Assembly (NCBI GenBank): GCA_017617715.1
Contig: JAFZVQ010000019.1
Span: 1-36,158, forward strand
Length of the DNA stretch: 36,158 bases
Direction of reading: 5' to 3'
From: Bacteroidales bacterium
GTDB taxonomy: Bacteria > Bacteroidota > Bacteroidia > Bacteroidales > UBA932
The translations under genes and the position numbers were made by a program. Of the stretch, positions 8,268-33,606 are shown one piece after another (position 1 is the first letter of the stretch; every line of letters begins with the position of its first letter). The notes beneath the pieces are model-generated. The model was not told the origin of the DNA and did no database searches. It saw only the letters and a program-made list of their open reading frames with translations.

Positions 8268-8274
8268 CGTCATT

Positions 8275-13805: not shown

Positions 13806-13934
13806 ATGAAACAAACAAGAATCTATGCTCCTCCGATAGTTGAGGAAATCGATGTGGATCTGAACTGCATGCTTTGCGACAGCCCCGGCAACAGGACCGA
13901 GCCTATTGTCTATGGTGATGAAGTAGATTTTTAA
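13806..13934 (+). CDS. 42-residue peptide A of the peptide-lipoprotein module
   Basis: A short gene encoding 42 residues, beginning MKQTRIYAPPIVEEIDVDL and ending GDEVDF, with Cys21 and Cys24. Two other genes in the window (18054-18182 and 33478-33606) encode peptides of exactly 42 residues, all ending in Asp-Phe, with a cysteine at 23-25 followed by Asp/Thr-Ser, and all placed just before a homologous lipoprotein. Peptide C shares the pattern GN(R/K)TE-x-IVY-x-DE. The N-terminal pattern M-K-x-x-x-I-Y-x-P resembles short unannotated peptides I know from other Bacteroidales. There is no signal peptide or membrane segment. Function unknown; the repeated context makes it a real gene. Confidence 0.8.
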   Translation: MKQTRIYAPPIVEEIDVDLNCMLCDSPGNRTEPIVYGDEVDF

Positions 13935-13942
13935 AAGGGGGA
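13935..13942 (+). promoter_or_regulatory. Purine-rich ribosome binding site of lipoprotein A
   Basis: AAGGGGGA lies 7 bases before the ATG at 13950 and immediately after the stop of peptide A. The other two module copies have GGGAGG and GGAGAG in the same place, which is notable in a phylum where such sites are usually weak. Confidence 0.55.
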
Positions 13943-13949
13943 CAAAGCC

Positions 13950-15950
13950 ATGAAAACAATCAAGACTATCAGAATAATTATGCTTGGCGCAGCTATCTGC
14001 GCTTGCCAGAAAAGCCAGACTGTCACCGAGGCCCCTGAAGGGCCCAAGATGATCGAGGTCCGTGCCGTTTTCGCAGATGGGGAAGTTTCTTCCAAAGCCT
14101 CCCTTGCCGAAGGTTCCACCCAGTTTGCCTGGAACGCTTCCGACGAAGTTGTTGCCTGGGACGGCAGCGCTGCAACACAGAATTGCGCCATCACGGATAT
14201 AGATGCCAATGGTGTCGCCACCTTCTCAATCCCCGCAGGCTCCGAGTGGGTAATCTATCCTTCCGCTGCGCTCACCGTCAGCGGCAACACCGCCACCTGG
14301 ACGCGTCCTATCGGGCAGCCTGTCTCTGATGCAGACCAGATTGTCGGAAACGGGGCCAACCCCATGTTCGGAAAGGTGAACGGCGATGAAGTGGAATTCA
14401 CGAACCTCTGTGGCTACATCCAGTTCAATTTCACCGGCACCAAGACCCTCAACAGGATGTTCTTCAAGAGCAATAACATCACTTCGCCCGCCCTTACAGG
14501 CCAGGCAAGCATCGATGTCAGCGCAGCGACTCCCGTGCTGTCTTATCCGGTTCTCAGCACCTTAGCCAGCGGTCAGTATCAGTATGGCTATACCAATGTA
14601 AGCGGCCTTAACCTCACGCTGGATCCCACCACCCCCACTCCTGTGATGGTGGTTCTCCCTCCTGCAACCTATGAAGCAGGGGAAATTGTTCTTTTGTTCA
14701 GCGACGGCACGTCCCTTTCCATCATCTCCAACAACGACCTCACCGTGACGCGCAATACCGTGCTCAGGGTCAAGACTATTGACGTGGATTCAAAGTTCCC
14801 TGCCAGCCCCGTCGCTCTCGATGCGGACGGCCGCTCCAACTGCTATATGGTGATTGCTTCAGATGAGCCCCAGGCATACAGTTTCGAGGCCGCCAGCATC
14901 ATGGACGGCACCCCGTTCAGTCTGGCGAAATCGGCCAATATGGTGTGGTCCGAGGATAAGAAGCTCATCAATAACATCACCTACGACGCCAATACGCATC
15001 GCGTGACTTTCCAGTACAACGGAGGCGGACGTGAAGGCAACGCCCTGGTGGCCATTGACCAGAGCCTTGAAAATGACGGCGGCACCCTTCTCTGGAACTA
15101 CCATATCTGGGTCACCGACCAGCCGGAAGACATCAAGATGAGCGGCTCTGCCATGCCGCAGGCAATAATGGACCGCAACGTGGGATCCACTTGGGCGCCC
15201 AAGACCGAGGCTGAAGTCACGGGGATGACAAAGGCTCAGTGGCTCGAGACCATAGGCACATATTACCAGTATGGCAATCATATTCCTTATCCCCGAATCA
15301 CGGATGCCAGAAACTCAAGCGCTGCGTGGGATATGTACAAGGTGTCCGTCATGTACGGCTTCAGCAGGTATTGCCATCGCTTTACTGCTTCTACAGGCGT
15401 AAAGAACACCCTTGCCGAGCAGGAGAGGTATCCCAACTATGCCTACCATAAGAGCACCGGCACCAAGTATGGAAGCGCCACTGAAACAATCTGGACAAAT
15501 GTAGTGCTTAAGGGCGGCCCCAAGGGCGAAACCGGCCAGAATATCTGGATCACCAATAATTCAGCCACGGCGAAGACCAACGACTACGACCCTTGTCCCC
15601 AGGGATACTGCCTGATTACTGCAACACATACGTATAATGCAACCAAAGATTATCCTGTATCCGATCATTTGCTGAACTCCTATTTTGCCGGTAAATACAA
15701 CATTGATACAGAGAACCATCTTATGTATTATCCTGCCGCAGGTTATCTGGGTAATGGCAAATACGCGCTGGTCGGAGGCGTTTCCGACAACAAGGGACGG
15801 GTCGTTTACTGGTCTTACTATCTGGATTCCGGCACGGACATGGATCACAAATTTCGCCGCAACTTCATGAACCAGGCGCAAACGACGTTTTCCTATGATA
15901 ATCAGCCTTTCTCCTCGCAAGCTCATAACATGCGTTGCAGGAAGCTGTAA
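13950..15950 (+). CDS. Two-part lipoprotein A: fimbrillin-like N-terminus and FISUMP-like C-terminus
   Basis: A 666-residue predicted lipoprotein (lipobox ICAC, Cys19). The N-terminal half (about 34-290) resembles Bacteroidales fimbrillin-like domains (IEVRAVFADGE, FAWNASDEVVAWDG, WVIYPSAALTV, VMVVLPPATYE). The C-terminal half has RSNCYMV, LLWNYHIWVTDQP (about 380), MDRNVGSTW, YYQYGNHIPYP (about 440), DYDPCPQGY (around Cys549), PAAGYLG, VVYWSYY and a terminal NMRCRKL. This series matches the wider Bacteroidota pattern of FISUMP-type (Fib_succ_major) domains, which have a C-type-lectin-like fold (inferred). It is probably an exposed adhesin or ligand-binding protein. Its first ~290 residues resemble copy C (31453-33459), whereas its last ~330 resemble copy B (16026-18038). 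Confidence 0.8.
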   Translation: MKTIKTIRIIMLGAAICACQKSQTVTEAPEGPKMIEVRAVFADGEVSSKASLAEGSTQFAWNASDEVVAWDGSAATQNCAITDIDANGVATFSIPAGSEWVIYPSAALTVSGNTATWTRPIGQPVSDADQIVGNGANPMFGKVNGDEVEFTNLCGYIQFNFTGTKTLNRMFFKSNNITSPALTGQASIDVSAATPVLSYPVLSTLASGQYQYGYTNVSGLNLTLDPTTPTPVMVVLPPATYEAGEIVLLFSDGTSLSIISNNDLTVTRNTVLRVKTIDVDSKFPASPVALDADGRSNCYMVIASDEPQAYSFEAASIMDGTPFSLAKSANMVWSEDKKLINNITYDANTHRVTFQYNGGGREGNALVAIDQSLENDGGTLLWNYHIWVTDQPEDIKMSGSAMPQAIMDRNVGSTWAPKTEAEVTGMTKAQWLETIGTYYQYGNHIPYPRITDARNSSAAWDMYKVSVMYGFSRYCHRFTASTGVKNTLAEQERYPNYAYHKSTGTKYGSATETIWTNVVLKGGPKGETGQNIWITNNSATAKTNDYDPCPQGYCLITATHTYNATKDYPVSDHLLNSYFAGKYNIDTENHLMYYPAAGYLGNGKYALVGGVSDNKGRVVYWSYYLDSGTDMDHKFRRNFMNQAQTTFSYDNQPFSSQAHNMRCRKL

Positions 15951-15975
15951 GCGCTGTCTTCAGCACTTTCACTAT

Positions 15976-16008
15976 AAAAAAAAGAGGTCTCGACGACCTC
16001 TTTTTTTT
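15976..16008. terminator. Symmetric bidirectional rho-independent terminator
   Basis: Eight A (15976-15983), GAGGTC (15984-15989), a 5-base loop, GACCTC (15995-16000) and eight T (16001-16008) form a 14-bp stem usable on both strands. It separates the tail-to-tail lipoprotein genes A and B and ends both operons. Confidence 0.95.
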
Positions 16009-16025
16009 ATGAAGGATAAACCGTA

Positions 16026-18038
16026 TCAGTCGGCGGACAGCACGCGGCAGCGCATGTTGTGGGCCTGGGAGCTGAAGGGTTGGTTGTCGAAGGAGAACTT
16101 GGTCTGTGCCTGGTTCATGAAGTTGCGGCGGAACTTATGGTCCATATCGGTCTTGGTGTCAGAATAGTAGGACCAATAGACCACGCGTCCACCGGTCTGG
16201 CCGCCTCCGACAAGTGCGTACTTGCCGTTACCCAGATAACCTGCAGCAGGGAAGTACATCAGGTGCGAGCTGATGTCCATGTTGTATTTTCCGGCGTAGT
16301 TGCCATTGAGTAGGTGGTCGGTGACTTCATTGTTCAGGGTCTCCTGGTAGGTGTAGGTGGCCGTGATGAAGCAATAGCCCTGCGGGCAGGGGTCGTAGTC
16401 GTTTGTCTTCTCGGTGGCAGTGTTGTTGACATACCAGATATTCTCTCCCTCTTCTCCGGTAGGACCACCCTTGAGGACGACCAGTGTCCAGACAGTTTCG
16501 TTGGCGGAGCCGTACTTGACGCCGGTGCCTTTGTGGTAGGCATAGTTGGGGAACTGCTCCTGTTCGGCAAGCGTGGCTTTTGCGGAACCGCTGTGGGCGA
16601 AACGGTGGCAATAGTTGCTGAATCCGTACATAACTTCCATCCTGTAGTTGTCCCATGCGGCCGTTGAATTCTTCGGAGTCTTCAGGCGCGGGTATGGGAT
16701 GTGGTTGCCGTACTGATAGTATGTACCTATTGTTTCAAGCCACTGCTCCTCAGTCATATTGGTCACCTCGGCCTCGGTCTTGGGGGCCCAGGTGGCGCCG
16801 ACGTTGCGGTCCAGTATGGCCTGGGGCATGTCGGTCTCGTCCATGAGGATGTTCTCAGGCTGGTCGGTGACCCAGATGTGGTAGTTCCATAGCAGGGTGG
16901 CGCCTACGCCGAGCTGGTTCTGGTCCAGGGAGATGACCGCATTGCCTTTTTCGTTGCCGCCGCCATACAGGAATGTGACCTGGTGGGTGTTGGCGTCGTA
17001 GGTGGTGCTGCGGATAAGGGTTTTGGACTCGGACCAGAGCAGACTGGCCATCTTGGCAAGGTCGAAGGTTTCGCCGGAGACGCATTTCTTGGCGGTGAAT
17101 CCGTAGTGCTTGGCCTCGGGTCCGGCGATGACCATGTAGCAGTTGGACTGGCCGGCGACGTCGAGGGGTTCGGGATCGGCGGGGAACAGGGCATCGGTGT
17201 CGATGGGCTTGATCTTGCGCACCTTGTTGCGCTCCACGGTGATGTCGTTGGAGGCGACCAGGGCGGCGGCGGTGCCGTCGGTGAACTCAAGCACAAGTTC
17301 GCTGGTCTCGTAGGTTGCCGGGGGCACTACCACGTAGACGCTTGTCGGGGTTGAGCTCAGGGGGATGCCCCTGCCGTAGACGTTGATGTAGGCATGCTTG
17401 CTCACGCCGCTGGTGGAGACCTTGCTCAGCACGGGATAGGAAAGCACCGGGGAGGCTGCGCTCACGTCGATGGTGGCGTCGCCGGTGAGTGCCGGGGAAG
17501 TGATGTTGTTGGTCTTGAAAGACAGCCTGTTGATGGTCTTCGAGCCGGTGAGCTGGAACTGGATGTATCCGCAGAGGTTCGTGAATTTAATCACTCCGCC
17601 TTCCAGACGGCCGAACATGGGGTTGCCGCCGTCTCCAATAAGCTCACTCCCTTCCTCGGATATCTTCTGGGAAGTGGAGCGGCTCCAAGTGGCGGTGTTG
17701 TCTGTCACGACCAGCTTGCGGGAAGGATAGATTACCCACTGGGTGTTTTCGGGAACTTCGAACGTGGCGACGCCCTTCTCATCGATGTCGGTGATGGCGC
17801 ACTGCCTCTTAACGTTGGTGCCGTCCCATGCGACCAGGGAGTCGGCTTCGCTCCAGTGGAACGATAGGGAACCCTCGTCCAGGGTGGTCTTGGTGAGCTC
17901 ACCGTCGGCGAGGACGGCCTTCACCTTAATCATCTTCACTCCGTCGGGTGCGGCGGGGATTTCAAGGCTTTCTTTGACCTGGCAGGCGGAAAAAACCGCG
18001 GCAAGCGCGAACGCTGCAATGAATAAACTCTTTTTCAT
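16026..18038 (-). CDS. Two-part lipoprotein B: fimbrillin-like N-terminus and FISUMP-like C-terminus
   Basis: A 670-residue predicted lipoprotein (lipobox VFSAC, Cys19) with the same layout as copy A: fimbrillin-like half (IKVKAVLADGE, FHWSEADSLVAWDG, YVVVPPATYE), then QSNCYMV, LLWNYHIWVTDQP, YYQYGNHIPYP, DYDPCPQGY, PAAGYLG, YWSYY and NMRCRVL. The last third is nearly the same as copy A (FRRNFMNQAQT, DNQPFSSQAHNMRC), while the N-terminal half is clearly more diverged. It is the last gene of the operon that encodes the SusCD pair and is preceded by peptide B with a 15-base gap containing GGGAGG. The role is probably surface binding; the ligand is unknown. Confidence 0.8.
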   Translation of the reverse strand: MKKSLFIAAFALAAVFSACQVKESLEIPAAPDGVKMIKVKAVLADGELTKTTLDEGSLSFHWSEADSLVAWDGTNVKRQCAITDIDEKGVATFEVPENTQWVIYPSRKLVVTDNTATWSRSTSQKISEEGSELIGDGGNPMFGRLEGGVIKFTNLCGYIQFQLTGSKTINRLSFKTNNITSPALTGDATIDVSAASPVLSYPVLSKVSTSGVSKHAYINVYGRGIPLSSTPTSVYVVVPPATYETSELVLEFTDGTAAALVASNDITVERNKVRKIKPIDTDALFPADPEPLDVAGQSNCYMVIAGPEAKHYGFTAKKCVSGETFDLAKMASLLWSESKTLIRSTTYDANTHQVTFLYGGGNEKGNAVISLDQNQLGVGATLLWNYHIWVTDQPENILMDETDMPQAILDRNVGATWAPKTEAEVTNMTEEQWLETIGTYYQYGNHIPYPRLKTPKNSTAAWDNYRMEVMYGFSNYCHRFAHSGSAKATLAEQEQFPNYAYHKGTGVKYGSANETVWTLVVLKGGPTGEEGENIWYVNNTATEKTNDYDPCPQGYCFITATYTYQETLNNEVTDHLLNGNYAGKYNMDISSHLMYFPAAGYLGNGKYALVGGGQTGGRVVYWSYYSDTKTDMDHKFRRNFMNQAQTKFSFDNQPFSSQAHNMRCRVLSAD

Positions 18039-18046
18039 CTCTGTTT

Positions 18047-18052: not shown

Positions 18053-18053
18053 G

Positions 18054-18182
18054 TTAAAAGTCAATACCTTCAGTGTCGTCAGCGACGATGTCTTCCAACT
18101 GGCTGTCGCACAGCAGTCGTGTGAGCTCCAGCTCCCAGCCGTCGATGTCGGGAGCGGCATACATGATTGTTTTTTTCTTCAT
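18054..18182 (-). CDS. 42-residue peptide B of the peptide-lipoprotein module
   Basis: From the ATG at 18182 this gene encodes 42 residues, starting MKKKTIMYAAPDIDGW and ending DDTEGIDF, with Cys25 followed by Asp-Ser. A longer in-frame start at 18236 would overlap the upstream DUF5689 gene and add a sequence absent from the other two copies, so I use 18182. Length, the Asp-Phe C-terminus, the central Cys-Asp-Ser and the position before a lipoprotein match peptides A and C, but the C-terminal third is divergent (it lacks the GN-x-TE-x-IVY pattern). It starts 10 bases after the DUF5689 gene stop, so it is part of the SusCD operon. Function unknown. Confidence 0.78.
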   Translation of the reverse strand: MKKKTIMYAAPDIDGWELELTRLLCDSQLEDIVADDTEGIDF

Positions 18183-18192: not shown

Positions 18193-20640
18193 TTATTTGT
18201 TGTATCGTATTGCAATGTACTCGATGGCGCTGGCATGCGCTCCGTCGCCGGCCGGCTGGTTGATCAGGACGTCGTTGGCGTAGTCGGAGCCGTTGCTGCA
18301 CACGTCGCTGGTGGGCCTCAGGCGCACGTAGACATTCTCATGGCCGAGGATTTCCTGCGGCAGTTCGAAGTCGAGCGTCTTGTATCCCACGATGGACGAA
18401 TACAGGGTGTTGGACCACACGGACACATCCGGAATCGTGTAGTCGGCGATGGTGTGCCACTGCGGGTCGTCCTTGGGATCCATGCTGTCCACCAGCGACC
18501 ACTCCGCTCTCCAGAAACGGGGAGCATACCAGGTCTGCTGGGTGTTGAGCACTGAAATCTGCATGGAAATGTGACTGGTGGTGATGCCGTCCGTGGAGAA
18601 GTTTATCATCCAGGCATGCGGGCGGGAAGTGTCGTAGTCCCACCAGTAGTGCGACGCCCAGCCGGTGAAGCAACCGCCGTAGAGGTTGCTCTTGCCGTAC
18701 ATGGAGCTGGACTGGTTGTTGATGCCGCCGCCGCCCATGGTGGTGCCGACCGCATCAGCGCTGGTGGCGTTGGGCCCGCACCACTCGATGGTGCCGTCGG
18801 GATTGAAGCTCACCAGGTTGAGCAGTGCGGCATGCTCGGTGTCGTAGTGCTCCCTGGCCGGATCTATCACGATGCCGCAGCCGTTTTTGTTGCCCCAGTT
18901 CAGGCCGAACATATAGCTGTCTTTGTTGCCCATGGGGCCGAGATACTCATAGGTGCCTGCGCCCCACATGTGCTGCTTGTAGGTCTGCTGGGTGTACTCC
19001 TTGACCTCGGAGCCGGTGTACTTCCGCTGGTAGGTGTGCGTGAACCAGCCGTTCTCGCCGTAGGTGGGGAGGCAGACCTCGTTGGTCATGTCGGGGAGCC
19101 AGTAGCGGTATTCGGTCAGCAGGGCGGAGAAGCTGTCTTCCACGCTGTCCTTCATCTGTCCCCAGATATCCTCCTTGCACTGGTGGCGTATCTGGTAGCG
19201 GCCTATGTTGCCAAGGGTGACGTCGTCCTCCATTTCAGCAGGGTCGGCGCCTTCCCTCCACTCGAAGCGGGGGAAGCGTTCGTGGACTATCACGCCACTG
19301 ATCTTTCCGGAACCGTATGGCAGGCGGGTGCCGTCGTTGCGGTAGGTGCACACGGTGTTGGTGTACATGTAGATATGGTTGGCATTGATGTCACGCACCA
19401 TCAAAGGGTATTTGGACAGGCGGTGAGCGCCGGTGCCGATAGCATATCCTTCGTTGACGGGGACTATTGAACCCTTACGCACCGGGAACTCCACGTCCTT
19501 GAGGGTGACATAGGTGTACAGGTCGCTGTCGGTCAGTTCGGAGATGTACTTTTCCTTCACAGGCACGGAAGCCTTGTTGCCGGCCACCTGGGACACGACC
19601 ATGTTCTTGGTCACGTTCTTGATGGTCATGCGCTCAGGCTCCTCGCTGAGCACCGCCGTGGCTCCATGCAGCAGTATCTGCACGCGGTCGAACTGGCTGA
19701 ACACGTTGTCGGCGGCATCTGCGAGCACCACCATGACGCCGCTGCTGCCGTCGGGAGCTTCAATGTAGACGGTGCGCTGGCAGCCGGTGTAGTCGATGCT
19801 GGAAGTCGTGATCTGTTCGTTCTCGCCGGAGTTGCCGGAGGAGGGGTCGCTGACCACGATGCCGTCGAGTATTATGTAATCTTCGATGGGCTTGCCGGTG
19901 GCGTAGGTGCCTGCGATGTCGGAGAACTGCGCCGGTACACCGATGCCTTCCTTGGCGTTGCGCTGCACGAGGTTGAGCAGCACGCTCACCTTGTCGCCCC
20001 AGCCGTCGGTGTAGGAAATGTTCACCGTTGCGGTGCGCGGCACCACCTCGTCGGGATTGGCATCGGTCACAATCGAGAGCGCATGGGTGCCGTCTGTGAG
20101 CGGCGTATCGTCGATGGACACGCCGGACACCCATCCGGAAGGTGCTCCTTCAGGATACTCGATGTCGATGTTCATATAGGAGAAGGGCACGTTGGTGGAC
20201 ACGTATTCGGTCACGTTGCCTCCCTTGCCGGGGAGCACAATGGATGTGTTCTCCTTGGTCAGCACGGCTTCGACGGCCCCTTTCTGCTTGATGGACAGGG
20301 TGTCGCGGCGGCTGTCCACGTCGCTGCAGAGCGCTATGCGGCTCATGCGCTTGAACTCTTCGTTCAGGGTGGCGGTGACCTTCAGGGAATCGTCGCCGTT
20401 GCCGTTCATGCGGTCGAGCGACAGCCACGGCGCGTCGTCAAGGGACACAATGCTGTACGGGCCATTCGAGAACACGGCTATCTTCACGGTGCCGCCGTCC
20501 TCGTCGATCACATATTCCTTTTGCGTCGCGCCCAGTTCCACGAAGGCGACAGGGGTCGCGTCGTCGTATTTGCAGGCCGCCAGCAAGAGCAGGGCGGGCA
20601 GCAAGGCCAGGCTTTTAAGTATTATGTTCTTCATATTCAT
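18193..20640 (-). CDS. BACON/DUF5689 surface lipoprotein (copy 2)
   Basis: An 815-residue predicted lipoprotein (lipobox LAAC, Cys23). Residues about 32-122 fit a BACON domain (EYVIDEDGGTVKIAV, WLSLD, TLSIKQKG) and a second BACON-like unit may follow (about 125-228). Residues about 238-470 fit DUF5689 (DYIILDGIVVSDPSSGN, TVYIEAPDGSSGVMVVL, ISELTDSDLYTYVTLKDVEF), a beta domain of Bacteroidota surface proteins. The rest (about 500-815) is Trp/Tyr-rich and looks like a beta-sandwich ligand-binding region; I do not recognise its family. It is a paralog of the upstream gene, two bases away, and holds the place that SusE/SusF-type surface binding proteins have in sugar loci. Ligand unknown. Confidence 0.75.
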   Translation of the reverse strand: MNMKNIILKSLALLPALLLLAACKYDDATPVAFVELGATQKEYVIDEDGGTVKIAVFSNGPYSIVSLDDAPWLSLDRMNGNGDDSLKVTATLNEEFKRMSRIALCSDVDSRRDTLSIKQKGAVEAVLTKENTSIVLPGKGGNVTEYVSTNVPFSYMNIDIEYPEGAPSGWVSGVSIDDTPLTDGTHALSIVTDANPDEVVPRTATVNISYTDGWGDKVSVLLNLVQRNAKEGIGVPAQFSDIAGTYATGKPIEDYIILDGIVVSDPSSGNSGENEQITTSSIDYTGCQRTVYIEAPDGSSGVMVVLADAADNVFSQFDRVQILLHGATAVLSEEPERMTIKNVTKNMVVSQVAGNKASVPVKEKYISELTDSDLYTYVTLKDVEFPVRKGSIVPVNEGYAIGTGAHRLSKYPLMVRDINANHIYMYTNTVCTYRNDGTRLPYGSGKISGVIVHERFPRFEWREGADPAEMEDDVTLGNIGRYQIRHQCKEDIWGQMKDSVEDSFSALLTEYRYWLPDMTNEVCLPTYGENGWFTHTYQRKYTGSEVKEYTQQTYKQHMWGAGTYEYLGPMGNKDSYMFGLNWGNKNGCGIVIDPAREHYDTEHAALLNLVSFNPDGTIEWCGPNATSADAVGTTMGGGGINNQSSSMYGKSNLYGGCFTGWASHYWWDYDTSRPHAWMINFSTDGITTSHISMQISVLNTQQTWYAPRFWRAEWSLVDSMDPKDDPQWHTIADYTIPDVSVWSNTLYSSIVGYKTLDFELPQEILGHENVYVRLRPTSDVCSNGSDYANDVLINQPAGDGAHASAIEYIAIRYNK

Positions 20641-20642
20641 GG

Positions 20643-24624: not shown

Positions 24625-24636
24625 GGTCCTTCTGTT

Positions 24637-27600
24637 TTAGTATCTTACCTGGACGCTGAAAGTGATGGTGCGGGCCTTGGGATAAGCTCCCAGGTCGACA
24701 CGGCGAAGAGTGGAAGAAGTGCCTTCCGACGAGACGTCGGGGTCGAAACCGTTGTAGTTCTTCCAAAGGTAGAGGTTCTCGCCCACGGCGCTGAAGGTTA
24801 TGTCCCTTAGGAAGTTGCCGCGCTTGAATGGTAGCGTGTAGGAAAGGGACACGTTCTTCAGGCGGAGGAATGAGGCGTCGTGGATCATGAAGTCGCTCGG
24901 AAGGGCGGCGTCGGTCTTTGCAGCGGCCCTGGGGATATCCGACAGGGGGTTGCGCTCCGGATGCCACGCGTCAAGCATATACCGGTACTGGTTGCAGAAG
25001 ATGGAACCTGCCATGTAGAATTCGGAGTAGTTGTAGATCTTGCCTCCGAGGGAATAGGCGAGGAAGACGCCGAGGCGCAGGTTCTTGTAGTGGAAGGTGT
25101 TCTGCAGACCGCCGTAGAGATAGGGGTCCGCATTGCCCATGTACACGAGGTCGTCCTGGGACAGGATTCCGTCGTGGTTGATGTCGTAGTAGCGGGGACC
25201 GCCGTCCGTGTTGCTGAGGGATGCGTAGGCGTGTGTGACTTTGTTGCGCTCACGCTCGCCGGCGCTCTTCCATGTGCCTCCGTACTTGAAGCCCCAGAGG
25301 GAGTTCAGGGGGTATCCGGCCACATATCCGTACATCATGTACTTGTTGTTGCCGGGGCTGTCGTAGGCGGACACGAACTCCTCGCCGCCGATGTCGTCCA
25401 CCATCTGTGAGTTGTGGGAGATGGTGAAAGAGGTGATCCAGCTGAAATCCTTCTTTGCTATGTTGCGGGTCTCGATGGAGAGCTCGACGCCCTTGTTGGA
25501 CGTTTTGCCGATGTTGATGAACTTGCTGGAGTAGCCCACTTGCGTCGGCGTGGGCACGTTCAGCAGCAGGTCGGAGGTGTGCGAATCATAGAGTTCCAGG
25601 GTCACGGACAGGCGCTCCTTGAAGGCGGTGAAGTCCAGGCCGAGGTTGTAGGCAGCGGTCTTTTCCCATTTCAGCTCGGGGGAGTCCAGCCTGCTGCGGT
25701 AGGCGGCCGCCGGCTGCTTGCCGTCGAACAGGTAGCCGCCGGTGGTGGTGCTGATGGCGGCGTGGGAACGGTAGGCGCTGATGGCGTCGTTGCCGGAAAG
25801 GCCGGCGCTTGCCCTGAGCGACATTTCGTCGATCCAGCCCACGTTCTTCATCCAGGGCTCGTTGGCTATGTTCCACTTGAACGCCGCGGAAGGGAATGTG
25901 GCGTATTTGTGGTTCTCGGCGAAGTTGGACGCACCGTCGCGGCGCACCGTGGCGGTGAGGTAGAAGCGGGAGTCGTAGTTCCAGTTGGCACGGGCGAACA
26001 CGGAGAACTTGCGTGTGGCCGATGCGGAGGTGCCGGCGCTGTAGGTCTCCTTGTCCTGCACTGCGTTCATGTTGTTCCACATCACCTCGTCGTCCATGTA
26101 GCCGCTGCCGCTGAGGGTGAAGTTGTTGGAGCCGAACTTATAGGCGGAAAGGCCCGCCATGACGTCCAGACGGTGTTTGCCGAACTTCATCTTGTAGGTG
26201 GCGGTGTTTTCCGACGACAGGGAATGCTCGTCGTATTCGGCCCTATAGGCGTCGCCTCCCTGGTCCTCGCCCTTGGTGGGGAGGGTGCCGGGATAGTAGC
26301 GGTAGGTGTGACGCTGGTAATAGTAGTAGGAGAACACGCTGCGCAGCTCCAGGTTCTTGACGGGCGTCATGACGGCCGAGAAGTTGTTGGTCATGGAGTG
26401 GCGCTCGAGATAGTGTGTGTTCATGTCGATGAGCGAGCGCGGGGTGTTGATCCATGCACCGGAGTAGTAGTAGTCGTTGAAGGTGTCCTCCGGCTTCATA
26501 TTCGGATTCAGGTAGACCGCTCCCTGGTACCAGGAGGTGCCGCCCAGGCTGGCCTTGTTCTCGTCGTTGTGGCGCCAGGTGTAGGAGCCGTTGTAGCCCA
26601 CTTTCAGCCATTTGAATATCCTGCGGTCCAGGTTGATACGGCCGGTCATACGTTTCTGGCCGCTGCCCTGGATGATGCCCTGGGTGTCGTTGTAGGAGAA
26701 GGAGGCGTAGTAGTTGTGCTTTTCTTCCGAGCCGTTTAGGGTGAGCGCGTAGTTCTGCGTCACGGCGGTGCGGGTGATTTCCTTGATCCAGTCGGTGCTT
26801 TCGGTCACGTGGTAGGGATCCTTGTAGATGAGGCCGGACAGGGGCGTGTCGAGGCTGAGCCCGGTGTGGTTGGCATCGGCTCCGAATGCGGCCACGTCGT
26901 TGCGGTACATCTGGAATTCGGCGGCGTTCATGATGTCGAGCGTGCGGGGCAGCTGGGAGAAGCCCACGTCGCCCTTGAAGGTGATGCCCGTCTGTCCTTT
27001 GCGGCCGGTGCCCTTCTTGGTGGTGATTATGATCACGCCGTTGGCTCCGCGGCTGCCGTAGATTGCGGTGGAGGATGCATCCTTGAGCACCGAAATGCTG
27101 GCGATGTCGTCGGAGTTGATGTCGTTGAGGTCGTGGATGGCGTCGATTATGCCGTCCACGACGAAGAGCGGTTCGTTGGAAGCGGTGATGGAACGGGTGC
27201 CGCGGATACGGATAGTGGTGGTGGAACCGGGCGCGCCGTCCGTGGACATGAAGTCGGCACCGGCGATGCGGCCCTGCAGGGCGTTATCGACGGAAAGCAC
27301 CGGGGCTGCCTGTATGTCCTGCATCTTGACGTTGGTCACGGATCCGGTGAGGTCCTGTTTCTTCACGGAGCCGTAGCCTATCATCACGACTTCTTCCAGC
27401 ATGTTGCTGTCTTCTTCGAGGGTGAAGTTGAAGACGGTGCGGTCGCCCGTGATGCGTGCGGTCGCGGTCTTGAAGCCCATGAACAGCACTTCGATGGTGT
27501 CGCCGCGGTTGACTTTCAGGGTGTAGCTTCCGTCTGCGGCGGTAACCGCGCCTTTGTTGGTGTTCTGTATGCGTATGGTGGCGCTGGGCAGGGGAGCCCC

Positions 27601-27705
27601 GTCGGTGTCGAGGACCTTTCCGGATATGGTCACCTGCTTGTCCTGGGCCTGGAGGCCGAGGGAGCAGAGCAGGGCGATAGCCAAAAGTAACAGTTTCTTG
27701 CTCAT
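24637..27705 (-). CDS. SusC/RagA-family TonB-linked outer-membrane transporter
   Basis: A 1022-residue SusC-type TonB-dependent transporter that should import, in an energy-dependent way, the product bound by the adjacent SusD. Features in order: signal peptide (1-20), a carboxypeptidase-D regulatory-like domain (about 24-95, VTISGKVLDTDGAPLPSATI), plug domain with MIGYGSVKKQDLTGSV (108-123), NALQGRIAG (141-149), IRIRGTRSI (165-173) and AIYGSRGANGVIIITTKKG (214-232), then the 22-strand barrel ending in a terminal aromatic-rich strand (TITFSVQVRY). Length is normal. It follows the BACON lipoprotein by 12 bases and precedes susD by 12. Absence of sugar hydrolases nearby suggests a non-glycan or phosphorylated substrate. 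Confidence 0.96.
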   Translation of the reverse strand: MSKKLLLLAIALLCSLGLQAQDKQVTISGKVLDTDGAPLPSATIRIQNTNKGAVTAADGSYTLKVNRGDTIEVLFMGFKTATARITGDRTVFNFTLEEDSNMLEEVVMIGYGSVKKQDLTGSVTNVKMQDIQAAPVLSVDNALQGRIAGADFMSTDGAPGSTTTIRIRGTRSITASNEPLFVVDGIIDAIHDLNDINSDDIASISVLKDASSTAIYGSRGANGVIIITTKKGTGRKGQTGITFKGDVGFSQLPRTLDIMNAAEFQMYRNDVAAFGADANHTGLSLDTPLSGLIYKDPYHVTESTDWIKEITRTAVTQNYALTLNGSEEKHNYYASFSYNDTQGIIQGSGQKRMTGRINLDRRIFKWLKVGYNGSYTWRHNDENKASLGGTSWYQGAVYLNPNMKPEDTFNDYYYSGAWINTPRSLIDMNTHYLERHSMTNNFSAVMTPVKNLELRSVFSYYYYQRHTYRYYPGTLPTKGEDQGGDAYRAEYDEHSLSSENTATYKMKFGKHRLDVMAGLSAYKFGSNNFTLSGSGYMDDEVMWNNMNAVQDKETYSAGTSASATRKFSVFARANWNYDSRFYLTATVRRDGASNFAENHKYATFPSAAFKWNIANEPWMKNVGWIDEMSLRASAGLSGNDAISAYRSHAAISTTTGGYLFDGKQPAAAYRSRLDSPELKWEKTAAYNLGLDFTAFKERLSVTLELYDSHTSDLLLNVPTPTQVGYSSKFINIGKTSNKGVELSIETRNIAKKDFSWITSFTISHNSQMVDDIGGEEFVSAYDSPGNNKYMMYGYVAGYPLNSLWGFKYGGTWKSAGERERNKVTHAYASLSNTDGGPRYYDINHDGILSQDDLVYMGNADPYLYGGLQNTFHYKNLRLGVFLAYSLGGKIYNYSEFYMAGSIFCNQYRYMLDAWHPERNPLSDIPRAAAKTDAALPSDFMIHDASFLRLKNVSLSYTLPFKRGNFLRDITFSAVGENLYLWKNYNGFDPDVSSEGTSSTLRRVDLGAYPKARTITFSVQVRY

Positions 27706-27717
27706 AGTCTTCGCGCT

Positions 27718-28761
27718 TTAATCATTAGACGTACCGAGCACCATGTCCTTGCCGCTGCCGCCGTTGACCTCCCAGAGGTCTTCGTCGCCATTCTTCACCG
27801 TAATCCTGCGGATGTAGAAATTGTCCACGAAGATCCTGTTGGGTGTGCCGCCGGAAGTGGAAGGGTCGCCGGCCGTGATGCGGATACGGGTGTTGCCGGT
27901 GAAGGGGTTGCGGTCGGAGGAAAGGATGCCCAGGAGGAATTCGGAGCCGGTCCAGAAATCGCCAGGGAAGTTTTCAGAGTGTATGTCGGCGTAGGGAGCT
28001 TCCAGTTCCATGCTGGTAGCGCCGTTGTCGCGGAACACTCCGCCGTCGAGGATTTCCACGGTGAGTTTGTTGGCGTCGCGTTTGCCCTCGAGGTCGGTGT
28101 AGGCGACGGCGCGGAACGACACCACGGCGAGCGAATCATAGCGAATGCCTTCGTAGAAAGGTGAGGAGATGCTGCCTCCCCGGCCGTCGGCGTCGCCCAG
28201 GATCAGGTAGCCGTTTTTCCCGTACACTGCGGCATCGTTGTCGGTGACCCAGCCGCGGTTCTTGTCGTTGTTGATCCACTGGGAATAGACGGTCCCGTCC
28301 AGCTTGCGCGGGTCGGATGTGCCGTACTTGCTCCATGAGAAGTCGCTGGCCACAGGGGTGACCAGGCCCTGGTGCACTGTGACGAAGGTCCCAAGCTGTT
28401 TCTCCGGGGCGGTGAGCAGGAGCGTGCCGGTGCGGCGGGTGTAGTAGGCTAGGGTGGCGCGGGGAATGAAGGAGAGGGTGACTTCGTAAAGGTCGTCACC
28501 CTTTTTCTCCAGGCCCTGCACCGCTGCCCAGGGAGTGCCCAGGTCGTCCTGCCACGATGCCGTGAACTCCACGTTGGAGCGTACGGTGAAAGTGGCAGAG
28601 CCGCCTTTCACGGACACGCTGACCACCTTGGAGGGCTCTTCGTCGCCGGCGTTCCTGTAGAAATCGATGTACTCTTTCCGTAGCGTCTCGCCAGCGTCTT
28701 TCCCGCAGGAACAGAGCAGGGCGAGGGCGGAGAGCACAACGAAGATTCTGGTTTTTGACAT
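27718..28761 (-). CDS. BACON-domain lipoprotein
   Basis: From the ATG at 28761 this is a 347-residue predicted lipoprotein (MSKTRIFVVLSALALLCSC, Cys19). The frame is open to 28995, but the extra N-terminus is a Pro/Arg-rich shadow of the upstream EEP gene, so I reject it. Residues about 48-132 fit a BACON domain (VSVKGGSATFTVRSNVEF, FVTVHQG), and residues about 150-335 look like a carbohydrate-binding-module-like beta-sandwich (GWVTDNDAAVYGKNGYLIL, RIRITAGDPS, RIFVDNFYIRRI). It lies between the EEP enzyme (20 bases upstream) and susC (12 bases downstream) and probably binds substrate at the cell surface. Ligand unknown. Confidence 0.75.
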   Translation of the reverse strand: MSKTRIFVVLSALALLCSCGKDAGETLRKEYIDFYRNAGDEEPSKVVSVSVKGGSATFTVRSNVEFTASWQDDLGTPWAAVQGLEKKGDDLYEVTLSFIPRATLAYYTRRTGTLLLTAPEKQLGTFVTVHQGLVTPVASDFSWSKYGTSDPRKLDGTVYSQWINNDKNRGWVTDNDAAVYGKNGYLILGDADGRGGSISSPFYEGIRYDSLAVVSFRAVAYTDLEGKRDANKLTVEILDGGVFRDNGATSMELEAPYADIHSENFPGDFWTGSEFLLGILSSDRNPFTGNTRIRITAGDPSTSGGTPNRIFVDNFYIRRITVKNGDEDLWEVNGGSGKDMVLGTSND

Positions 28762-28781
28762 AATGTTAAACAGGTTATTGA

Positions 28782-31277
28782 TTATTTTGAAAGATCGAAA
28801 TCTATAAGTATTGGTCTGTGGTCGGAAGGGTCGTAGTAACTGGGTACATAGACGCTGGGGACCTGGTCCACCCATTTGTCTCCGATTATCAGGGCATTGA
28901 CGACCTGGTCCATCAGAGGGGCCGAGGCATACACGTAGTCTATCCTTGCGGAGCCTGCCGTGGAAGACAGGTAGTTGGCCGGGGCGGGATACCATTCGCG
29001 GATCACATCTTTGAGGGCCGTCTTGTTCAGCACCACGTCCTGGGTGAGCAGGCGGGTGTCGTCGTCTGGGTAGCCAAGATACCAGTTGTCGAGGCGGGAG
29101 CGGGAATTCAGGTCGCCGAGCAGTATCCAGTCGCTGACTCCGGAGTAGGCCGCGGCGTTGACTGTGCGGGACACAATGTATTCCATCTCGAACTGCCGGT
29201 AGTAGTCGCCTTCGTGTTTTGCGGTGCTTTCATCGCGCTTGGCGGAGGCTACGTTGAATCCATAAGACTGCGGCCACATGTGGCAGGTCACGAAATGCAG
29301 TATCCTGCCGTTCACGTTGACCTGGTGCAGGGCGGCGCCGTGGGTCACGGGCTTTTCCGTCGTGTCGGTGTTGGTGATCTTGAACAGCGTGTTGATGGGA
29401 TACCTGGAGGTGATTTCCTGCGGATAATTGTCCCGGTGGCCTCCGAGGGCGCTGTAATTGTGGCCGTAGCGGGCGGCGATGGACGCCCAGCCGGACGGCA
29501 GGAAACGGAGGGAAGAGCTCTGGGCGCTGTTGGTGTAGTCCTTATATATGGAAGCGGCTTCGCACCACACGCAGATGTCGGGGTCGTATTTCTTGACGAA
29601 GGCCACGAAGTTGTCGTAATTGTTCCACTGGTCCGCCCACATGCCGTTCTGGATGTTCCAGTACAGAAGCCTCAGGTTGCCTTTGCGGACGTTGTCGGCG
29701 ATGCGGCGCACCGTGATGTCGTCCAGATAGAATCCGTGGACTGTCGCCGAATTGGGGTCGGATCCTGCGAAATAGAGCATGGTGCCGTCGGTGGCGTTGG
29801 TGGCGGTGAGTGTGGCTGTGTGCCAGGTCTTGGGCTCCAGCGCGGAAGCGGGGATGGTGACGGTTTTTCTGTCGATACCCGCCTGGGATACGCTGCCTAC
29901 GTATGGGAAACTGGTGGCGGCGTCTTTGCCGTCAACCTTTAGGGACGTGATGTGGCCGGCGTTGACCAGCTGAAGGAGGATGTTGTCGCCGGCGCCGTCC
30001 TGGAAGCAGAACTTGAATTCTACGGAGATGTCGGCCAGGCCGGAGACGTTGGTGATGGGGGGCGTCTGCATGACGCCGCGGGCTTTGTTGCCCTCGCCGG
30101 AGCCTACGGCCAGCACGCCCTGGTATTCCTGGCAGCGGAAGAGGTAGCGCCAGTCGGTGAAAGCGCGGCTGGCCACGTACGAATCCGACATCACGTGGCT
30201 GGTGCCCACCCGTTTGCCGGAGACTTCGGACCAGGTGTTGGATTGGATGAAGCCTGTGCCGGGGTTGGTGCAGGCCACGGGGGTGTAGGCGCCCGAGTAG
30301 CCGTCCCTGGTGCTGCCGCCGGTGGTGCCCATGGCCGCACCGTCGGGGGAGTAAGCCTTTGTCTTCTCTCCGCCCATGATGTTGCCGCCCCAGACGCAGT
30401 TGTCGAAGCCCTCGTACCACACGAGGTCGGGCTCGGGACTGAAGTCTATCGTTTGCGTAAGAACTGAGCCGGCGGTGAGCGCACCGGGGGTGACGGAGGT
30501 GCGCATCATCCTGTGGTCGGAGCTGCACACGGTGACTTCCAGGCCGCTGCGCAGGGAGGACGGGGCCAGCACGAAGGCTACGCTGGTGCCTTCGGGGCTC
30601 AGGGGCACAAAATTGCCGTTCTCGGTGCAGTTCACCACGGCGAAATCGACCCCTTCCGTCATCTGGAGGCTGCCCTTGGAAGGGTAATACACGGCTTTAC
30701 CGGCTATGATTTCCCCGGCAGGAGACTGGACCTTCACCGAACTCAGGCTTCCGCTGCCCTTGACCTTCAGCTCCAGCACGGCCACGGCATCCTTGAAAGT
30801 CAGCACGTTGCCGGTCGCTGCGGAGTAGGAGGCGTAGCGCGGATAGTTCTTGAAAGATGTTTTGGTGCCGGACCAGAACTGCGAAAAGGGCACGGCCAGG
30901 TCTTTATAGGCGGAGCTGCCGTACCACTGCCCGGAATAGCGCGTCACCAGTACGGCGTTGTAGGTCTCGTTCGACATGGCTTCCACGTCGGCATACCAGT
31001 TGCCGTCCGAGTCCGGCTGGAGGATGTAGTCGGTGCCGTTGACGTTGAGCTTGCAGCCCGTGAAATCATCGGCCGGCAGTCCCATCGCGCCCCGTACGGC
31101 GAAAGACGCCTCATCGGCCTCGGCATAAAACCGCACCTTGCCGTCCACCACCGAAATGGGCGAACCCTTCGGCGAGGGCTCTCCCGGATTGGTTCCCGGC
31201 TTGTCTCCTTCCAGCTCACCCTTGCACGAGAAAGCCAACACGGTCATTGCCAGAGCAATAAACAGTTTTTCTATCAC
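28782..31277 (-). CDS. Surface lipoprotein with EEP (DNase I-like) domain, first gene of the SusCD operon
   Basis: An 831-residue predicted lipoprotein (lipobox LAFSC, Cys18) starting at a GTG codon (31277). Residues about 40-525 are beta domains that align along their length with residues about 285-755 of the EEP protein at 10608-13775 (VWYEGFDNCVWGGNIM, NPGTGFIQSNTWS, RYLFRCQE). Residues about 529-831 are the endonuclease/exonuclease/phosphatase domain: LYWNIQNGMW, VWCEAA with Glu573, CHMWPQSYG, GDLNSRS with Asp722 and Asn724, IDYVYAS, and SDHRP with Asp819 and His820. All catalytic positions are present. Unlike its paralog it lacks the N-terminal fimbrillin-like domain. As the first gene of the operon it is the likely enzyme that acts on the substrate before SusCD uptake; nuclease activity is inferred from the fold. 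Confidence 0.85.
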   Translation of the reverse strand: MIEKLFIALAMTVLAFSCKGELEGDKPGTNPGEPSPKGSPISVVDGKVRFYAEADEASFAVRGAMGLPADDFTGCKLNVNGTDYILQPDSDGNWYADVEAMSNETYNAVLVTRYSGQWYGSSAYKDLAVPFSQFWSGTKTSFKNYPRYASYSAATGNVLTFKDAVAVLELKVKGSGSLSSVKVQSPAGEIIAGKAVYYPSKGSLQMTEGVDFAVVNCTENGNFVPLSPEGTSVAFVLAPSSLRSGLEVTVCSSDHRMMRTSVTPGALTAGSVLTQTIDFSPEPDLVWYEGFDNCVWGGNIMGGEKTKAYSPDGAAMGTTGGSTRDGYSGAYTPVACTNPGTGFIQSNTWSEVSGKRVGTSHVMSDSYVASRAFTDWRYLFRCQEYQGVLAVGSGEGNKARGVMQTPPITNVSGLADISVEFKFCFQDGAGDNILLQLVNAGHITSLKVDGKDAATSFPYVGSVSQAGIDRKTVTIPASALEPKTWHTATLTATNATDGTMLYFAGSDPNSATVHGFYLDDITVRRIADNVRKGNLRLLYWNIQNGMWADQWNNYDNFVAFVKKYDPDICVWCEAASIYKDYTNSAQSSSLRFLPSGWASIAARYGHNYSALGGHRDNYPQEITSRYPINTLFKITNTDTTEKPVTHGAALHQVNVNGRILHFVTCHMWPQSYGFNVASAKRDESTAKHEGDYYRQFEMEYIVSRTVNAAAYSGVSDWILLGDLNSRSRLDNWYLGYPDDDTRLLTQDVVLNKTALKDVIREWYPAPANYLSSTAGSARIDYVYASAPLMDQVVNALIIGDKWVDQVPSVYVPSYYDPSDHRPILIDFDLSK

Positions 31278-31308
31278 GGATAGTATCGGTTATCAGTTAT
31301 TATTTTAA

Positions 31309-31316
31309 CAAAAATA
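31309..31316 (-). promoter_or_regulatory. -7 promoter element of the SusCD-EEP operon
   Basis: TATTTTTG on the minus strand matches TAnnTTTG and is about 31 bases from the GTG at 31277, in an AT-rich stretch after the terminator of the preceding gene. The AT-rich context makes chance matches likely, and I see no clear -33 element. Confidence 0.4.
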
Positions 31317-31358
31317 ATAAAAAATGATGAAAATGTGTGTTTGGCGGGATAAAATAGT

Positions 31359-31404
31359 GACAAGAACCCCGAAAGCTTTTTGTGTAGCTTCCGGGGTTCT
31401 TGTC
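31359..31404 (-). terminator. Strong hairpin terminator after lipoprotein C
   Basis: A 19-base inverted repeat with one mismatch (arms 31359-31377 and 31386-31404, loop of 8 bases). On the minus strand, the direction of lipoprotein C (stop at 31453), it is followed by ACTATTTTATCCC and later T-rich sequence. It insulates copy C from the SusCD operon that starts at 31277. Confidence 0.75.
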
Positions 31405-31452
31405 AGTTGAAGTTATCCACTTTATATATTGTAAATGTGTGGAGTAAAAAAG

Positions 31453-33459
31453 CTACTTGAGCCTGGCGCAGCGCATGTTGTGAGCCTGGGAGCTGAAGGG
31501 AACGTTGCCAAAGCCAAAAGTTGTTGAGCCTGACTCCATTATTGCCCTTCTGAATAATCCGGCGTTCATATCGTTGCCGGTATAATATGACCAATAGACC
31601 ACACGGCCACTGTCGTTTATACCTCCGACCAGGGCGGCTTTGCCTTGTCCTAAATAACCAGCTGCTGGGTAATACAATAAGTCTCCGGATGTGTTGGAAT
31701 GGTATTTACCGGAAAAATAACTATTGAGCGTCTGGCTTTTCACTTTGTTATTACTGTTCGAGGTCAATCTGTACAAGTGCGTTGCTCCAATAAATACATA
31801 TCCTTGAGGGCACGGATCATAATCATTTTGCTTCGTAGAAGTTCCATTAGGCGTGATCCATATATTATCGTAGCCGTCTCCTTTGGGGCTGCCTTTTATT
31901 TTTACAGTTGTCCATATTGTCTCATTAACAGGATTTTCTTCTGTGCCATAATTAGTGCCAGTTCCTTTTTGGTATAGATAATTAGCCATAGTCTCCTGGT
32001 CTGCCAGTGTGGTTTTGGCAGCTGTGGAGGCCTTCATAGTATGGCAATAATTGCTGAATCCGTATTGGATTGCAATGCGGGCATTGTCCCATGCTGCAGA
32101 GGAATTGTCAATACGTGCAATACGAGGATAAGGGATATGGTTGCCGTACTGATAATATGTCCCGACGGTCTCAAGCCACTGATCAGCTGTCATTCCGGTG
32201 ACCTCGGCTGTGGTTTTAGGTGCCCATGTAGCGCCAACATTTCTGTCCATGACAGGAACTGGCAAACCAGTGTCATTCATTGAAACATCAGCAGGTTTAT
32301 CGGTAACCCAGATATGGTAATTCCAAAGGAGGGTTGAGGCTGCGTTTTGAAGATTCTGGTCAAGTGCTACAATTGCATTGCCCTCTAGGTTTCCCCCCAT
32401 ATACTTGAAAGTCACGCGCTTTGTGGTGCTGTCATAGGAGATGTTATTGATTAGACTCTTGCTTTCCGCCCAAAGGATATTTGCGGTCTTGGCAAGGTCG
32501 AAAGCAACGTCTCCAGTAATGCTTGAAGCCTTGAAGCTGTAGTACTTTCCTTCAGCAGACGGCTCAAGCATATAGCAGTTCGACCTTCCTCCAGCATCAA
32601 GGGCAATAGAACTGTCGGGGATCCTGGAATCCACGTCAATATTCTTGACCCTGAACACTGTATTGCGCGTCACGGTGAGGTCGTTGTTGGAAATGATTGT
32701 AAGGGATGTGCCGTCATTGAACTCGAGTATGATTTCCGCACCCTCATAAGTTGCGGGCGGAAGAACCACCATCACAGGAGTGGGAGTAGTAGGATCCAGT
32801 GGGAGGTTAAGCCCGCTGACATTCGTATATCCGTAGATATTGTTACCACCTGTAGCCTTAGGGTAGGACAATACCGGAGTCGCAGCGGAGACATTGATAC
32901 TTCCCTTGCCTGTCAAGGCATTGGAACTAATGTTGTTGCTCTTGAAAGAGAACTTAGTGAGCGTCTTGGTGCCGGTGAACTTGAACTGGATGTAGCCGCA
33001 GAGGTTGGTGAATTCCACTTCGTCGCCATTCACCCTTCCGAACATGGGATTGGCTCCGTCGCCGATAAGCTGGCCTGATCCGGAAACAGTCTGGCCGACC
33101 GGACGCGTCCAGGTGGCGGTGTTGCTGCTGACGGTGAGCGCGGCTGAAGGGTATATCACCCACTCTGAGCCTGCGGGGATTGAGAAAGTGGCGACACCGT
33201 TTGCGTCAATGTTCGTGATGCCGCAGTTTGTGGTTTCTTTGCTGCCGTTCCAGGCTACTACTTTGTCGGAAGCGTTCCATTCAAACTGGGTGGAGCCATC
33301 GGCAAGGGAGGCTTTGGAAGAAAGTTCCCCGTCCGCAAACACGGCACGGACCTCGATCATCTTGGTGCCATCAGGGGTTTCTGTAACTTGATTTTCTTTC
33401 TGGCAAGCGCAGAAGGCTGCCGCAAGCATAATGATGCTGATTGTCTCGATTGTTTTCAT
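31453..33459 (-). CDS. Two-part lipoprotein C: fimbrillin-like N-terminus and FISUMP-like C-terminus
   Basis: From the ATG at 33459 this is a 668-residue predicted lipoprotein (MKTIETISIIMLAAAFCAC, Cys19). An ATG at 33474 is in frame, but its GGAGAG lies inside that extension and forms the ribosome site for the ATG at 33459, and copies A and B start at the matching place. The N-terminal half is very close to copy A (MIEVRAVFADGE, SSKASLADGSTQFEWNASD, NIDANGVATFSIPAGSEWV). The C-terminal half has the same landmarks (LLWNYHIWVTDKP, MDRNVGATW, YYQYGNHIPYP, DYDPCPQGY, YPAAGYLG, QAHNMRCARLK) but is more diverged from A and B. It is preceded by peptide C and followed by a strong terminator, so it forms an independent unit. 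It looks like a surface-exposed binding protein of unknown ligand. Confidence 0.8.
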   Translation of the reverse strand: MKTIETISIIMLAAAFCACQKENQVTETPDGTKMIEVRAVFADGELSSKASLADGSTQFEWNASDKVVAWNGSKETTNCGITNIDANGVATFSIPAGSEWVIYPSAALTVSSNTATWTRPVGQTVSGSGQLIGDGANPMFGRVNGDEVEFTNLCGYIQFKFTGTKTLTKFSFKSNNISSNALTGKGSINVSAATPVLSYPKATGGNNIYGYTNVSGLNLPLDPTTPTPVMVVLPPATYEGAEIILEFNDGTSLTIISNNDLTVTRNTVFRVKNIDVDSRIPDSSIALDAGGRSNCYMLEPSAEGKYYSFKASSITGDVAFDLAKTANILWAESKSLINNISYDSTTKRVTFKYMGGNLEGNAIVALDQNLQNAASTLLWNYHIWVTDKPADVSMNDTGLPVPVMDRNVGATWAPKTTAEVTGMTADQWLETVGTYYQYGNHIPYPRIARIDNSSAAWDNARIAIQYGFSNYCHTMKASTAAKTTLADQETMANYLYQKGTGTNYGTEENPVNETIWTTVKIKGSPKGDGYDNIWITPNGTSTKQNDYDPCPQGYVFIGATHLYRLTSNSNNKVKSQTLNSYFSGKYHSNTSGDLLYYPAAGYLGQGKAALVGGINDSGRVVYWSYYTGNDMNAGLFRRAIMESGSTTFGFGNVPFSSQAHNMRCARLK

Positions 33460-33466
33460 TGCTAAA

Positions 33467-33472
33467 CTCTCC
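33467..33472 (-). promoter_or_regulatory. Ribosome binding site that decides the start of lipoprotein C
   Basis: GGAGAG on the minus strand is 7 bases upstream of the ATG at 33459 and overlaps the alternative ATG at 33474-33472. This favours translation from 33459. Confidence 0.55.
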
Positions 33473-33477
33473 ATGCT

Positions 33478-33606
33478 TTAAAAATCAAATTCTTCGTCAC
33501 TGTAAACAATCGTTTCCGTTTTGTTCCCGGCGCTGGTGCACAACTCCTGCGGGACCATCTCGTAAATCACCCTAAGACAGGGCGGACAATAATCTAAGTT
33601 GGTCAT
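33478..33606 (-). CDS. 42-residue peptide C of the peptide-lipoprotein module
   Basis: The gene encodes 42 residues, beginning MTNLDYCPPCLRVIYEMV and ending SDEEFDF. It contains Cys7, Cys10 and Cys23. The C-terminal segment, Cys23-Thr-Ser-Ala-GNKTETIVY-Ser-Asp-Glu, closely matches that of peptide A, while the N-terminus differs and has a Cys-Pro-Pro-Cys motif (residues 7-10) that could be a metal or redox site. The stop at 33478 is 18 bases before the lipoprotein start. No signal peptide. The fixed length of 42 residues and the Asp-Phe end link it to peptides A and B. Function unknown. Confidence 0.75.
   Translation of the reverse strand: MTNLDYCPPCLRVIYEMVPQELCTSAGNKTETIVYSDEEFDF

Follow-up and report, generated by a model that had tools for sequence, protein, structure and literature searches.

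Short open reading frames directly in front of a lipoprotein gene raise the question of whether the encoded peptide has a function of its own and, if so, whether that function is linked to the lipoprotein. Here it was asked of three such arrangements in the window, that is, the whole stretch of 36,158 nucleotides analysed, which is one entire contig of an incomplete source genome (2.32 Mb in 86 contigs, 76.6% complete). A preliminary description of this DNA had noted, in three places, a 42-residue peptide paired with a lipoprotein, and the sequence check found all three pairs in place (Table 1). As had been described, every peptide has 42 residues, ends in Asp-Phe and carries a cysteine near residue 24, at 24, 25 and 23 in peptides 1, 2 and 3, which is followed by Asp-Ser, Asp-Ser and Thr-Ser, respectively. 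The gaps of 15–18 nt and lipoprotein lengths of 666–670 aa were likewise reproduced by measured values of 15, 15 and 18 nt and 666, 670 and 668 aa, the third module having an alternative start codon that lengthens the lipoprotein to 673 aa and shortens the gap to 3 nt. The second and third copies showed 64% and 69% identity to the first.

Table 1. Positions of the peptide and lipoprotein genes of the three modules in the window.
Feature	Position	Strand	Product	Sequence features	Basis
Peptide 1, precursor-like	13806..13934	+	42 aa + stop	Y7xxP10 leader motif at 13824–13835; C24xS26 at 13875–13883; acidic tail	sequence, family profiles
Lipoprotein 1	13950..15950	+	666 aa	lipobox Cys at residue 19	lipobox rule
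Peptide 2, precursor-like	18054..18182	-	42 aa + stop	Y8xxP11; C25xS27	sequence, profile
Lipoprotein 2	16026..18038	-	670 aa		lipobox rule
Peptide 3, precursor-like	33478..33606	-	42 aa + stop	Y6xxP9; C23xS25	sequence, profile
Lipoprotein 3	31453..33474	-	673 aa (Met 33474) or 668 aa (Met 33459)		lipobox rule

The three peptides gave zero Pfam or NCBIfam matches at E ≤ 1, and the label "FISUMP-type" that had been attached to the lipoproteins is not supported for those of the window, as they have no match to PF09603 or the NCBIfam FISUMP model at E ≤ 1. The structure prediction of the window lipoprotein, made from a three-row alignment, reached a pLDDT of 30.7 and was unusable. Lipoprotein genes without a peptide also exist in the window, for example at 10608–13775 and 18193–20640. 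Among the surroundings of the modules, two large Exo_endo_phos proteins are encoded at 10608–13775 and 28782–31277, the first with a clear lipobox, and genes with a similar SDHxP ending stand before the modules at C5 and C78:65.9k of the source genome. The region between modules 2 and 3 (18193–28995) holds a SusC/SusD locus with DUF5689 and BACON lipoproteins, and the genes at 2441–8558 resemble an Rnf electron-transport operon by eye.

Sequence and distribution of the peptide family

When peptide 1 was used as sole query, weak sister matches were obtained elsewhere in the source genome. Profile A1, built from nine peptides of which three were those of the window and three had previously been found before lipoproteins, detected 30 places in the source genome at E ≤ 1, and profiles A2 and A4 added seven places to give a total of 37; the peptide profiles take in no neighbour genes. 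The Y-x-x-P motif was present in 34/34 family peptides, and the mean charge from residue 27 onward was −4.8 in the same set. The Asp-Phe ending does not generalise (3/34), and the lengths in the family range from 39 to 61. In a wider set of 79 peptides, all except one contain a [C/A/S]xS motif, with the small residue being Cys in 67, Ala in 7 and Ser in 4. The step from Tyr to this small residue is 17 in 68/78 and 18 in 8, and the residue at Y+19 is Ser in 69/78. A typical member carries C-x-S at Y+17 to Y+19 and an acidic, variable tail. By their sequence, the 42-mers are members of a large peptide family with an invariant Y-x-x-P.

The preliminary description had proposed selection and profile searches as checks on the peptides, and both came out in their favour. 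For nine disjoint pairs of peptide genes the pooled dN/dS was 0.24, which indicates purifying selection, although some of the pairs approach saturation at synonymous sites. The family was found to be widespread, with lipoprotein neighbours co-occurring in the source genome and in others. Within the genus, 92/121 genomes matched at E ≤ 0.05, with about 6 expected by chance. The first order-wide search with A2 matched 9 of 198 genomes besides the source genome at E ≤ 0.05, as against about 10 by chance; the wider profile A4 reached 13 genomes outside the genus and gave between 2 and 17 matches in each of six, and real and chance matches across the order were told apart by neighbour genes and profile A4. 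Two loci (L153 and L157) had been left out before the peptide list was made, and L157 later proved real.

Pairing of the peptides with lipoprotein genes

The link between peptide and lipoprotein that had been suggested for the window was supported on a much larger sample. All 37 peptide sites of the source genome lie 5' of a lipobox gene, including the 30 places of profile A1 (27 outside the window and three within it), and on contig C15 two tandem peptides stand before one lipoprotein gene. A single automatic lipobox rule was passed at 29/29 own sites, compared with 81/416 background genes, and the remaining 8 of the 37 sites likewise have a lipobox gene next. The pairing exceeds chance. Among the loci numbered below 195 in other genomes, 53/56 distinct peptides passed an automatic but laxer lipobox rule, the background value above belonging to the stricter one. 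The three failures comprise one neighbour that is lipoprotein-like by eye and two related peptides, those of L063 and L081, which are true exceptions. In other genomes, the genes of two close relatives of the lipoprotein are also preceded by a 42-mer, at a distance of 14 nt.

The partner lipoproteins range from 310 to over 1600 aa and belong to several families. When ten sister module lipoproteins were scanned, NAGPA, Big_2, Lcl_C, GLUG or Fib_succ_major domains were found in some and none in four; Fib_succ_major was above cut-off in one of the ten (34.3 versus 33.9 bits) and below it in another. In 28 modules of the source genome, the distances between peptides correlated with those between lipoproteins (rho 0.30, p 0.0015), also after the closest 5% of lipoprotein pairs had been removed (rho 0.26, p 0.0055). 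By peptide part, the correlation was 0.27 for the core and 0.17 (p 0.052) for the leader. The peptide and lipoprotein of a pair tend to travel together.

Enzyme and exporter loci

The source genome contains two copies of a locus encoding an HprK-like kinase, an S26-like peptidase, a PqqD protein and an ABC exporter. Both lie on contigs other than the window, and the peptides and this machinery are unlinked in the source genome. The PqqD proteins of the two loci matched PF05402 with 54.7 and 60.1 bits (cut-off 23.4) and qualify as discrete RREs; among solved structures, the PqqD profile matched TfuB1 best (E 2.9e-5), which is the B1 protein in a lasso system. The kinase was weakly matched by sequence (ScmC, 16.8 bits, below the cut-off of 125), and its HprK-like nature was seen from the AlphaFold model (pLDDT 93.6) of a kinase with 92% identity, for which Foldseek found PEPCK and HprK/P; HprK chains were absent among the 50 matches listed by VIA-align for the kinase model, while Foldseek lists HprK. 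Its relatives come mostly from rumen and horse-gut Bacteroidales MAGs, one of which, 63% identical, is from Candidatus Cryptobacteroides choladohippi, which makes Cryptobacteroides the likely genus of the source genome. The S26-like peptidase showed a weak match to NCBIfam sigpep_I_arch (21.6 bits, cut-off 51.85), and strict patterns around Ser, His and GDGN were found in 67, 68 and 74 of 76 sequences, respectively. The exporter scored over the cut-offs of PF00664 and PF00005; the MsbA and CydC models of NCBIfam were its best, yet under their cut-offs, and it was classed as MsbA-like. An NTP transferase (NTP_transf_5, PF14907) adjoins the kinase in Fibrobacter and in genome G054, and that of the source genome is on contig C81, unlinked to the four-gene loci. 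All four genes were present in 48/80 kinase-anchored named loci. Locus L251, from the cultured Prevotella sp. khp7, encodes an NTP transferase, the kinase, S26 and PqqD.

The kinase alone was set aside as a marker because an unlinked paralog also matches. This paralog of about 350 aa adjoins rpiB and truB away from PqqD (L178:8641–9753, L179:7863–8933 and L181:7565–9625), and in L181 it is fused in frame to truB. Two further loci were noticed on the way. At L180:8129–12455 (G081:C3), two SPASM-type radical-SAM-like genes stand beside two PqqD-like matches, a kinase and an S26 gene, with relaxase-like genes near, which is possibly a further-modified version of the kinase/S26/PqqD system. L117 (G013:C1:480000–497000) is a separate cluster of two asparagine-synthase-like genes, an HprK-like gene, a sulfotransferase-like gene and PqqD, and looks lasso-like by eye.

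Linkage and co-occurrence of peptides and machinery

Because the peptides and the machinery lie apart in the source genome, their linkage was sought in other lineages. In each of the following, the genes are on one strand. L219, from horse faeces, encodes the kinase, S26, PqqD, a peptide and a lipoprotein; L250, from Prevotella, has a peptide between two secreted-type proteins, followed by the kinase, S26, PqqD and ABC genes; and L259, from Fibrobacter, has a secreted-type protein, two peptides, two NTP transferases, the kinase and S26. The order is PqqD, peptide, kinase and S26 in G206, and peptide, kinase, S26, PqqD, NTP transferase and ABC in G054. The loci listed with peptide and machinery on the same strand are L219, L250, L259, L305 and L306. 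A profile built without the six first-seen loci gave 26 matches at E ≤ 0.05 (12 at 1e-3) in 20/87 loci, 10 of the 12 Fibrobacter loci being among them, and it gave 0 matches on reversed DNA and 0 in ten Markov shuffles. None of the 12 Fibrobacter loci has PqqD or ABC within the DNA examined.

At the level of genomes, the PqqD region was examined in seven peptide-bearing genomes outside the genus, and in 7/7 the kinase, S26, PqqD and ABC genes occur together, a count that is separate from four further PqqD-positive genomes and from G270. The last has a peptide match with E 4.5e-6, with no machinery near it, and is missing from the PqqD matches. PqqD was present in 11 of 13 non-genus peptide genomes versus 127/198 overall, which is a weak contrast. 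Among genomes of the genus with a completeness of at least 90%, peptides were found in 38/47 PqqD-positive and 1/6 PqqD-negative genomes (p 0.0035, by statistics that ignore kinship), and in 37/46 with both markers and 0/5 with neither; over all genus genomes the figures were 84/101 for PqqD-positive and 8/20 for PqqD-negative. These counts come from hand-copied lists, genomes absent from the lists having been assigned by elimination, and matches to the unlinked paralog count towards the kinase marker. The exceptions were G032 (23 peptides and PqqD, with no kinase match), G120 (2 peptides and no PqqD), and the 9 of the 46 genomes with both markers in which no peptide was found.

A second type of partner in Prevotella and Fibrobacter

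Another class of partner was met in Prevotella and Fibrobacter. In the fetched loci, 28/32 peptides (23 distinct genes, judged by eye) lie directly downstream of a gene with a KGxYxxNGKKVxIK-type C-terminal tail, which was present in 0/1068 control ORFs of the window's group. The tail-bearing proteins that precede the peptide genes are those of L320–L348, and their shared tail has no Pfam or NCBIfam name in the ten proteins scanned. It resembles a type IX secretion tail; that label was set aside as no such Pfam or NCBIfam match was obtained in the ten, and we speak of a shared tail only. With another profile, 2 to 30 precursors were found in 12 of the 14 genomes reached through these loci and none in 2. 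This second-type profile misses some precursors, because it found none in the genome of L219 itself.

These arrangements bear on whether the short ORF might be an expression leader, in which case coupling or ribosome arrest during its translation would control the lipoprotein gene and the peptide itself would have no further role. Its place 5' of the lipoprotein gene at a small gap would suit such a leader. Conservation at the peptide level, the fixed Tyr-to-Cys spacing and the dN/dS given above argue against it, as does the position of the peptide downstream of its partner in the 28 of 32 cases, and a leader role leaves the peptides inside the enzyme locus unexplained. We consider this explanation very unlikely.

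Proposed mechanism

A gene set close to the present one has been reported from Bacillota as the RiPP system of linear polyphosphorylated peptides (LPP; Popov et al, 2026, PMC13381572). In the available text of that paper, LPP loci comprise an RRE, a signal-peptidase-like peptidase, an HprK-like kinase, an NTP transferase, an MsbA-like exporter and YxxP precursors; leader binding, phosphorylation of core Ser3 and RRE-dependent leader cleavage are experimental, and LPPs are called Bacillota-restricted and of unknown role. The 42-mers are quite probably precursors of a RiPP-like system with gene content matching that of Bacillota LPP. We favour a modified and exported peptide because of the YxxP leader, the kinase/S26/PqqD/ABC locus and the peptides inside such loci in other lineages. 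Of the options in the preliminary description, the secreted or surface-attached peptide comes closest to the evidence, secretion itself being inferred, and the chaperone or regulator and the expression leader are less favoured since the same three observations point elsewhere.

By analogy with the Bacillota system, PqqD would bind the YxxP leader in trans, the kinase would phosphorylate the conserved Ser, the S26-like peptidase would cut near C-x-S and remove the leader, and the ABC protein would export the core; the NTP transferase may decorate the phosphate. With a cut before the Cys, the Ser would be the third residue of the core, as it is in LPP, whereas a cut after the small residue (C/A/S) would fit a small residue at −1. 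The core may then work with or on the co-encoded lipoprotein at the cell surface, as their adjacency suggests, and this action with its own surface protein is the least certain step.

The precursor could instead belong to another RiPP class, for example that of lasso peptides, with the cyclase gene at another place in the genome, given that YxxP, PqqD, an HprK-like kinase and an NTP transferase also accompany lasso clusters in the available texts of PMC7533575 and PMC13381572. Among the genes of the four-gene loci read by eye there is no cyclase or B2 peptidase, and a lasso reading from Asp/Glu at core 7–9 was checked by eye and dropped, the tail having no fixed acid there, so that such a class appears improbable. 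The least probable explanation considered is a chaperone or regulator in the cytosol with the nascent or exported lipoprotein as its target, for which the lack of a signal sequence, the tight pairing and the distance correlation (rho 0.30, p 0.0015) could speak, but the partners are diverse in size and domains and are other proteins in Prevotella, and the invariant part of the peptide is YxxP, in agreement with a single common partner, for example PqqD.

Returning to the modified, exported peptide, a wider proposal, to which we give rather less than even credence, is that an LPP-like pathway in Bacteroidota and Fibrobacter makes, in place of a single secreted metabolite, dozens of different phosphorylated, possibly nucleotide- or sugar-decorated peptides, each for its own co-encoded surface protein as tag, ligand, cap or anchor, with one enzyme set serving many dispersed pairs. 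The role of LPP-type peptides is unknown in the available text on LPP, and 37 precursors that all stand beside lipoprotein genes make a partnership of peptide and surface protein testable; the surface-type proteins of a different class that are paired with the peptides in Prevotella and Fibrobacter add to this question. The pairing hints at the use of the modified peptides. Very common short ORFs of bacteria from gut and rumen, to which Pfam and NCBIfam were blind in the three scanned, would likewise receive a function class.

Comparison with known systems

A search of the open-licence literature found only PMC13381572 with this gene set and no paper describing it in Bacteroidota. The earlier remark that the system is not a described one thus stands for Bacteroidota, for which no description was found, and gives way for the gene set, of which a closely similar Bacillota version was published in 2026 (PMC13381572). 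The Bacteroidales RiPP clusters of PMC10352776 are alike in being RiPP-type clusters of the same order. They differ from the S26/kinase loci in the peptidase-containing transporters and radical SAM enzymes named there; the main text of PMC10352776 has no instance of "S26", "S24", "signal peptidase" or "YxxP" and a single one of "PqqD", within a reference.

The likeness to lasso systems with a discrete B1 (paeninodin-like) consists of a YxxP/WxxP leader recognised by a PqqD-type protein, with kinase and NTP transferase as accessories in the portions of the literature at hand, and the nearest solved PqqD relative is the lasso protein TfuB1. The differences are the S26-like peptidase in the present loci, no cyclase or B2 peptidase having been seen in those read, and a 42-mer family in which no fixed ring-closing acid is seen by eye.

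The closest resemblance, as far as the available text on LPP goes, is to that system. All five gene kinds are present in the source genome, S26 by weak similarity only, and both systems have short YxxP precursors with a conserved Ser near the presumed core start and a variable C terminus. In contrast to Bacillota LPP, the present family is from Bacteroidota and Fibrobacter, and its Ser has a conserved Cys two positions ahead of it. As many as 37 precursors are scattered over a genome, compared with one to three per LPP cluster, and each adjoins the gene of a surface-type protein, where PMC13381572 reports capsule loci. From the LPP leader consensus YxxPxVLxHQxIxFETxxS, the Y, the P and a Ser (at Y+19 here, at Y+18 in LPP) are shared and the HQ and FET positions are missing. 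Because the full leader consensus is absent, we file the system, on present sequence evidence, as an LPP-like variant and not as a member of LPP; what is new is its occurrence in other phyla, the dozens of dispersed precursors per genome and their pairing with surface-type proteins.
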